Below, piece after piece: positions 3,945 to 4,868 of a DNA stretch of 42,489 nt. Each line of letters begins with the position of its first letter. Position 1 is the stretch's first letter. Made by a program: the position numbers and the translations under genes. The notes beneath the pieces are model-generated. The model searched no databases. It was not told the DNA's origin and worked only from the letters and a program-made list of their open reading frames with translations. Source of the DNA: a virus; the IMG/VR virus record IMGVR_UViG_3300017726_000016, positions 1-42,489 of that record; one strand, written 5' to 3'.

Positions 3945-3955
3945 TACGAAGACAC

Positions 3956-3984
3956 TTGACTAAATAATGTATGAGGTCTATAAT
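3956..3984 (+). promoter_or_regulatory. Host-type sigma-70 promoter
   Basis: TTGACT at 3956-3961 and TATAAT at 3979-3984 are separated by exactly 17 nt, close to a perfect bacterial sigma-70 promoter. It should start transcription near 3991 and drive the small genes 4051-4518, which end at the terminator at 4525-4549. The -10 box lies inside a short palindrome (AGGTCT at 3974-3979, AGACCT at 3986-3991) that could be an operator or an early hairpin. Confidence 0.75.
3960..3966 (+). promoter_or_regulatory. T4-type late promoter box (CTAAATA)
   Basis: CTAAATA matches the cyanophage version of the T4 late promoter (TATAAATA). It lies between the -35 and -10 of the sigma-70 promoter, so the same genes could be read early and late. 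One of a recurring set in this window. Confidence 0.5.
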
Positions 3985-3993
3985 AAGACCTGA

Positions 3994-4050
3994 CGTTCAT
4001 CCCGCTTTAGGGTGGGACGCAAGTAAGTCGCGGAACGGAGCGTTCATCCC
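3994..4050 (+). promoter_or_regulatory. Structured leader with two competing hairpins
   Basis: The direct repeat CGTTCATCCC occurs at 3994-4003 and again at 4041-4050, ending right at the ATG at 4051. The segment GGGTGGGACGC at 4010-4020 can pair with either copy (8 of 10 positions with the first across a 6-nt loop; 9 of 11 with the second across a 19-nt loop). The second pairing encloses the ribosome-binding site GGAG (4037-4040). The two pairings exclude each other. The complementarity is seen directly; a regulatory role is inferred. Confidence 0.5.
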
Positions 4051-4215
4051 ATGATAGATTTACTTCTATATGCTACACTTAGTTGTCAAGATGCTGAAGC
4101 AATTATGCTCAGGATCACTAAGAACCAAACCGTACCACCTTTGGTAAAGGTTGAGTTGGTTGAGACCGTAAGGGAAGCAACCGAACCTGAGTGTTACTGG
4201 GACGCACACGACTGA
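4051..4215 (+). CDS. 54-aa protein, function unknown
   Basis: A short open frame, MIDLLLYATLSCQDAEAI onward, ending ECYWDAHD. The GGAG at 4037-4040 is a suitable ribosome-binding site. The composition (Leu/Ile/Val plus acidic residues, two cysteines, mainly helical) looks like a real small soluble protein. It is the first gene behind the sigma-70 promoter at 3956. I do not recognise a named family; it resembles short conserved proteins of picocyanobacteria and their phages. Confidence 0.65.
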   Translation: MIDLLLYATLSCQDAEAIMLRITKNQTVPPLVKVELVETVREATEPECYWDAHD

Positions 4216-4245
4216 AGGAACGGGGATTAAAAACCCTAACTTCAG
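4212..4245 (+). promoter_or_regulatory. Stem-loop overlapping the ribosome-binding site of the next gene
   Basis: CTGAAG at 4212-4217 pairs fully with CTTCAG at 4240-4245. Inside it, GGG at 4223-4225 pairs with CCC at 4234-4236 around an A-rich loop. The 3' arm includes the first two bases of the AGGAG ribosome-binding site (4244-4248) for the gene at 4257. There is no T-run, so a terminator is unlikely; control of translation is inferred. Confidence 0.45.
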
Positions 4246-4256
4246 GAGACTGACAA

Positions 4257-4424
4257 ATGAACACACTAAACATCATCAGAAAGCAGATCAACAAAGCATC
4301 TGCTTTGCATGACGCACGTATTAGTCACACCTCATATCGTGGTGTTGAGTATTCGACACGTTGTGTAGAATCAAAGGAAACCCATGGCACATTCTGCTAT
4401 CGCGGTCGTACCTACGTGAAGTGA
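4257..4424 (+). CDS. DUF4278-like small protein
   Basis: A 55-residue basic protein with two YRG motifs: SYRGVEYSTR near residues 26-35 and CYRGRTYVK at the C-terminus. Repeated YRGxxY is the hallmark, as I remember it, of DUF4278, a short domain common in cyanobacteria and their phages, of unknown function. Ribosome-binding site AGGAG at 4244-4248, partly locked in the stem-loop at 4212-4245. It belongs to the early-type small-gene unit behind the promoter at 3956. Confidence 0.7.
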   Translation: MNTLNIIRKQINKASALHDARISHTSYRGVEYSTRCVESKETHGTFCYRGRTYVK

Positions 4425-4672: not shown

Positions 4673-4837
4673 ATGCACAATCTTATTTCTCGCAATCAAC
4701 TAGCAGAATGGGATCTCTTTGAGAAAACATCCAACCCAAGAGAATCAGATCTGGTAAATGATTATTTTGACTGCTTGATTGAATGCGACGAAGACCAACA
4801 AACTTGCAAACGAGTATGTAAAAAACTTTTAGTTTAA
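4673..4837 (+). CDS. 54-aa protein with twin CX3C motif
   Basis: A short acidic protein (MHNLISRNQLAEWDLFE onward) with a GGAGAG ribosome-binding site at 4661-4666. Its only four cysteines form CX3C-X6-CX3C (C34, C38, C45, C49) in the C-terminal third, an arrangement that suits a disulphide-bonded helical hairpin or a metal site. It is a one-gene unit between two intrinsic terminators, with its own late promoter box. Family not recognised. Confidence 0.65.
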   Translation: MHNLISRNQLAEWDLFEKTSNPRESDLVNDYFDCLIECDEDQQTCKRVCKKLLV

Positions 4838-4842
4838 AAAGG

Positions 4843-4867
4843 CGGGGGTTTCCACCCCCGTTTTTTT
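4843..4867 (+). terminator. Intrinsic terminator
   Basis: Stem CGGGGGT (4843-4849) with ACCCCCG (4854-4860), four-base loop TTCC, followed by seven T residues (4861-4867). Strong Rho-independent terminator after the gene ending at 4837. Confidence 0.92.
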
Positions 4868-4868
4868 A

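Follow-up and report, generated by a model that had tools for sequence, protein, structure and literature searches.

Introduction

Riboswitches are normally seen as compact leaders before genes. Glutamine riboswitches turn genes on in response to glutamine and have been linked to DUF4278 (PMC6316151), and they are already known in cyanophages (PMC9964418). In the Glutamine-II crystal structure, the ligand site comprises C1:G40, G2:C39 with G18, and C19:G41 (PMC6698751). Glutamine riboswitches also occur in tandem, with 157 doublets described (PMC9481103). An open reading frame inside an aptamer has one precedent that we found, the closest in the literature searched, namely the metE B12 riboswitch of M. 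tuberculosis, in which the upstream ORF uMetE2 lies inside the aptamer (PMC11260477).

The window analysed here is the whole 42,489-nt stretch of the virus record IMGVR_UViG_3300017726_000016. As judged from its sequence and that of its relatives, it probably holds the regulatory region of a small phage operon, in which two glutamine-type aptamers stand in tandem and the second is split by a complete gene in its P2 loop (Table 1).

Table 1. Predicted features of the control region and the genes it adjoins
Feature	Position	Strand	Basis
Probable sigma-70-type promoter: -35 TTGACT 3956-3961, 17-nt spacer, -10 TATAAT 3979-3984	3956..3984	+	sequence
Aptamer 1, glutamine-riboswitch type	3994..4038	+	Rfam matches, ligand-site residues, P2 pairing in relatives
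Aptamer 1 parts	CGUUCA 3994-3999; P2 hairpin 4000-4017; CGC 4018-4020; GGAACGG 4032-4038	+	
P1/PK of aptamer 1	3994-3998 with 4033-4037	+	
Competing hairpin GAACG-GAG-CGUUC (anti-P1), aptamer 1 3' strand with aptamer 2 5' strand	4033..4045	+	loop length, fold probability
GGAG, probable Shine-Dalgarno of embedded gene, 10 nt before ATG	4037..4040	+	place-specific in relatives
Aptamer 2, 5' half	CGUUCA 4041-4046; P2 5' strand UCCCA 4047-4051 (last base = A of ATG)	+	
Embedded gene, 54 aa, phrog_504 (T4-GC_430 in annotated phages), in aptamer 2 P2 loop	4051..4215	+	PHROG E 2.5e-24
Aptamer 2, 3' half: UGGGA 4198-4202, CGC 4203-4205, GGAACGG 4217-4223	4198..4223	+	
Aptamer 2 helices	P1, 4041-4045 with 4218-4222; P2, 4047-4051 with 4198-4202	+	
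Hairpin CUGAAG 4212-4217/CUUCAG 4240-4245, taking part of next gene's AGGAG (4244-4248)	4212..4245	+	covariation
Downstream gene, 55 aa, DUF4278-like, phrog_545	4257..4424	+	PHROG E 2e-34

A Repeated Leader Block in Cyanophages

An earlier note on this DNA had pointed to two identical repeats flanking a segment that could pair with either, and CGTTCATCCC is indeed found exactly at 3994-4003 and 4041-4050, with no further site in the window when one mismatch is allowed. As about 1.5 one-mismatch sites of CGTTCATCCC are expected by chance in the whole window, the repeat count alone is no proof. Chance is ruled out for the block that carries CGTTCATCCC because this block recurs in cyanophages: in a distant BLAST search, 3950-4055 matched 430 phage records, one place in each, all of them cyanobacterial or marine phages. 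The GGAG and the ATG (4051) lie where they had been placed, and the copy at the ATG extends into the region where the next gene begins. What had been missed is that the leader probably belongs to a known class, the glutamine riboswitch, and that the second repeat opens a second, gene-containing aptamer.

The First Aptamer

At Rfam gathering cut-offs, the window returns two tRNAs only, and aptamer 1 surfaces only at a relaxed threshold. At that threshold, 3991-4044 matches Glutamine-II (RF01704) with 25.3 bits and an E value of 2.4e-4 (7e-6 in the own-record search) and Glutamine-I (RF01739) with 23.8 bits and an E value of 5e-3, both scores lying below the gathering scores of 33 and 35, respectively. 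Low or split scores of this kind are what makes Rfam at its cut-off miss the element in the window. At least one of the two matches falls at the same place in 5/6 relatives. The matches being significant but below cut-off, element 1 is filed as a probable member of the glutamine riboswitches.

The residues that form the ligand site in the crystal structure are all present in element 1, as C3994:G4037, G3995:C4036 with G4019, and C4020:G4038 (compared with PMC6698751). Pairs 1-4 of its P2 are canonical in 97, 97, 94 and 90 of the 97 relatives with a short first hairpin, and the hairpin directly after CGUUCA is kept by covariation in both the short and the gene-containing forms. Single-sequence folding gives weak z-scores (-1.7 and -0.9), which are not decisive. 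The element resembles Glutamine-II (Downstream-peptide) in its succession of CGUUCA, P2-type hairpin, CGC and GGAACGG, and in its picocyanobacterial setting with short peptide genes downstream. It differs from that family in its score and in the 3' pseudoknot-closing helix, for which, as for the P3 of Glutamine-I, only about 3 bp can be drawn (CGC 4029-4031 with GCG 4040-4042), and also in that a gene lies within the hairpin of the second copy. We regard 3991-4044 as probably a glutamine-riboswitch-type aptamer, for which ligand binding is predicted.

A Probable Second Aptamer Split by a Gene

The 3' half of aptamer 2 is recognised in GGGACGCACACGACTGAAGGAACGG at 4199-4223, about 150 nt from its 5' strand and after a complete small gene. 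The ligand-site positions recur in element 2 as C4041:G4222, G4042:C4221 with G4204, and C4205:G4223 (compared with PMC6698751). P2, which has only 5 bp in the window, forms across the gene with a pair probability of 0.64-0.82, and P1 has a near-zero probability in the ligand-free fold. Element 2 is without the AAGUAAG part of the linker, and its affinity may consequently be low or lost.

Among the relatives, the spacing from the first core to the second half is bimodal, either about 18-33 nt or 144-252 nt. The longer spacing marks the nested form, found in about 105 loci including the window, with the ATG 3-6 nt after CGTTCA; this placement of the ATG holds in 159/161 genes. The unnested form is found in S-PM2 and about two dozen metagenomic loci, where only a few bases separate element 1 from a short-hairpin aptamer, with a downstream gene after it. 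In S-PM2, element 2 is an ordinary short hairpin directly downstream of element 1 that scores 33.3 bits against RF01739 (cut-off 35), and the gene after the tandem is YRG (DUF4278-like). Because the search motif fixed CGTTCA and ACGCA, the constancy of both proves nothing, and loci anchored on element 1 alone provide the fairer sample: ACGC and GGAACGG follow the gene or hairpin in 104/109 of these, and CGTTCA together with the ACGC...GGAACGG half is present in 103/109. Departures from the common layout include L118, with an insert of about 45 nt between aptamer 1 and the CGTTCA of aptamer 2, and L056 (2063-2180), with one aptamer immediately ahead of AGGAGG and an ATG and no second aptamer recognised.

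Three further described arrangements come close to this one. The likeness to Glutamine-I (glnA, RF01739) lies in the S-PM2 element 2, which matches along its whole length, in the DUF4278-like target, and in CUGAAGGAACG, which resembles the consensus CcGAAGGAACG; unlike that family, P3 is reduced or missing here, and in most relatives the P2 loop holds a gene some 50-65 codons long. As in the known tandems (PMC9481103), two aptamers of the same class stand in a row, but here 3-4 nt separate the 3' strand of aptamer 1 from the 5' strand of aptamer 2, the two strands can pair as a hairpin, and a gene parts the halves of the second aptamer. The metE riboswitch shares with this locus a translated ORF within the aptamer, and downstream expression is changed there (PMC11260477). 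The metE case involves a short upstream ORF in a peripheral extension of one riboswitch, whereas in the present arrangement, which many phages share, it is a core helix whose loop is occupied by a conserved protein gene, and the start codon is part of that helix. In the literature searched, we found no description of a gene that occupies the loop of a core aptamer helix and has its start codon within it, though an earlier mention may exist.

The Embedded Gene

The family of the embedded gene was found in 307 phage records by tblastn, and its relatives differ mostly at third codon positions. The core of aptamer 2 supplies the last codons and the stop; in most nested loci, the last codons are GAC GCA ... 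GAC and the stop is the TGA or TAA of CTRAAGG, and the stops of embedded genes cluster at a few fixed offsets. The embedded genes fall in phrog_504, phrog_6471 and phrog_13397, with a hydrophobic stretch at the start and cysteines that are kept; the families are several, some of them weakly similar to one another, and may be old paralogues. GGAG is present at this place in 55/82 loci with an embedded gene vs 0/21 without (Fisher p 5e-9, uncorrected for relatedness).

Some 40 loci, such as L006, have a gene inside the first aptamer too. In L006 (2538-2783), L008, L010, L020, L033 and others, it is the first aptamer whose P2 loop contains a gene, of phrog_6471; no obvious ribosome site precedes these genes, and some of the loci have a gene in the second aptamer as well.

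Compensatory Changes in P2

The two strands of P2 pair better within a locus than between loci, with mean stem scores of 5.93 vs 4.76 for element 2 and 5.70 vs 4.24 for element 1, and 0/5000 shuffles were as high in either element. With a fixed alignment, the covariation score of P2 is 0.319 in element 2, vs 0.149 (sd 0.012) when shuffled (0/500), and 0.227 in element 1, vs 0.139 (sd 0.023; 1/500), while slid controls show lower covariation than the true P2 register. Because such locus shuffles ignore relatedness, the changes were recounted on protein trees from which the P2 codons had been left out. On these trees, pair 3 of element 1 switches between C-G and U-A at least 6 times, with 41/41 loci paired and no unpaired state, and pair 4 of element 2 changes type at least 19 times, in part through G-U, with 119/119 loci paired. 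Loci missed by the motif still pair in P2, with CCCC/GGGG in L051, L075 and L102 and GAUUAUGG with CCAUAAUC in L088. The residue before Asp, which is read from the 3' strand of P2, is W, Q, K, I, E or R, varying as pairing demands. A point against the nested reading is that genes embedded in the first element have only 3 continuous P2 pairs in 13/42 cases. These comparisons indicate that P2 of aptamer 2, start codon included, is kept by compensatory changes across the gene.

Flanking Elements and Downstream Gene

A promoter pattern of the form TTGNNN-N15-19-TRNNNT is present in 120/133 relatives, and transcription is expected to start just 5' of aptamer 1. The -10 box is surrounded by the palindrome AGGTCTATAATAAGACCT (3974-3991), whose symmetry is kept in the 133 relatives while its arms change together (GGTC/GACC, GTGT/ACAC, GGTATG/CATACC), the mean best stem being 6.1 vs 4.1 in shuffles; it may be an operator, a DNA hairpin, or an RNA hairpin formed on read-through.

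The loop of the anti-P1 hairpin has 3 or 4 nt in 134/139 distinct relatives and 5 nt in 3, and the hairpin has a probability of about 0.5-0.58 in the window fold; its stem is invariant and hence gives no covariation signal. The hairpin before the downstream gene competes with aptamer 2 for position 4217 and is part of the minimum-energy fold of 4199-4262. At its variable R-Y pair, A faces C in 0/43 loci and G faces C in 50 of the G loci scored (Fisher p 1.3e-10). In line with the association of the class with DUF4278 genes, the downstream gene carries a match to Pfam PF14105 (E 3.4e-4), which at 21.4 bits is below the cut-off of 25.3. The region 4673-4868 holds a further small ORF (4673-4837) and then a strong GC-rich hairpin with a T run, ggcgggggtttccacccccgttttttt, likely the terminator of the small operon.

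Alternative Readings of the Repeats

The earlier note had proposed that 4010-4020 pairs now with one CGTTCATCCC copy and now with the other, so that the GGAG and the start codon are either free or hidden, and this reading is very unlikely. Its complementarity to both copies holds in part: in the best register, 4010-4019, 8/10 bases pair with either copy, around a 2x2 mismatch in the middle, and forced folding of 3991-4060 yields -16.5 kcal/mol for the first-copy pairing, only about 2 kcal/mol above the best fold (-18.4, unconstrained), and -12.7 for the second. The inner pairs of these helices are not kept, forming in only 24 to 55/97 relatives, and the innermost is impossible in 34/97 short-loop relatives. 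Compensatory changes, which the note had proposed to look for in homologues, are present, but they track the aptamer helices instead of the 4010-4020 register. One segment able to pair with either repeat does exist; it is probably GAACG 4033-4037, complementary to both copies at 5/5. The idea of a two-state RNA switch likewise stands, very probably as a ligand-type switch, in which the aptamers are probably of the glutamine-riboswitch type, rather than as an orphan hairpin.

Two further readings concern the nesting itself. It is very unlikely that the repeats are just scars of gene gain, left when recombination between CGTTCATCC copies put small genes into loops with no regulatory role: the identity of the repeats, the presence of several gene families at the same place in either aptamer and the existence of unnested versions would fit, but compensatory changes arising after insertion, within single gene families, and start codons that always lie inside P2 are left unexplained. 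Recombination between repeats may nonetheless be how the nested arrangement arose. A less remote reading, which we still consider unlikely, is that aptamer 1 works while the split element 2 no longer binds glutamine, its P2 being a hairpin that masks the start codon in ordinary translational control. Element 2 is shorter than the class consensus, and its long-range P1 is not predicted without ligand, as this reading would have it; against it, ACGC and GGAACGG persist in 104/109 of the loci anchored on element 1 alone, the codons of the C terminus keep their link to the aptamer core, and short versions match RF01739.

A Proposed Model for Reciprocal Control

Under the preferred reading, a tandem whose second aptamer is split by a gene, GAACG 4033-4037 is most likely the conserved switching segment, pairing with CGUUC either at 3994-3998 (aptamer) or at 4041-4045 (hairpin). 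With little glutamine, it would pair with the second CGUUC copy, leaving aptamer 2 unable to fold, and the hairpin at 4212-4245 would hold the DUF4278-like gene in the off state. When glutamine is abundant, aptamer 1 would take GAACG for its own P1 and free the second copy, and aptamer 2 would close over the embedded start codon and free the next ribosome site. Since the class turns its genes on with glutamine and is linked to DUF4278, and given the hairpins, we infer opposite effects of glutamine on the two genes, the DUF4278-like one being opened and the embedded one closed. Any ribosome translating the embedded gene would have to melt aptamer 2; translation of this gene and sensing by aptamer 2 would be mutually exclusive because the last codons and the stop are part of the aptamer core. 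Least certain is how aptamer 1 acts on the embedded gene: GGAG shares 4037 and 4038 with the bound core, so that the action could be OFF rather than ON. The full model, in which a core helix encloses a whole gene that starts within the helix and stops within the ligand-binding half, glutamine switches the embedded gene off and the next one on, and ribosomes veto sensing, is put forward tentatively, as somewhat short of probable.

Distribution in Hosts and Implications

In cellular genomes, the second-element pattern gave 7 matches, including one Prochlorococcus single-cell genome contig (L182); several of these, in unrelated taxa, may be misbinned phage contigs or chance. L182 has the nested arrangement with phage-type genes beside it and probably stems from an infected cell. 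In the group around this Prochlorococcus genome, RF01739 is found in 33/101 genomes, a count that would miss any nested genes, as the covariance model is blind to an aptamer whose halves lie 150 nt apart; the phage-style motif CGTTCAYC ... ACGS ... GGAACG is absent from all fetched loci of those genomes except the L182 contig.

If the model is true, wrapping a sensor around a gene would set translation of that gene in direct competition with ligand sensing, and the locus would show how short coding sequence and structured RNA can share the same sequence. The presence of the block in hundreds of cyanophages, cultured ones included, makes glutamine sensing in marine cyanobacterial infection testable.
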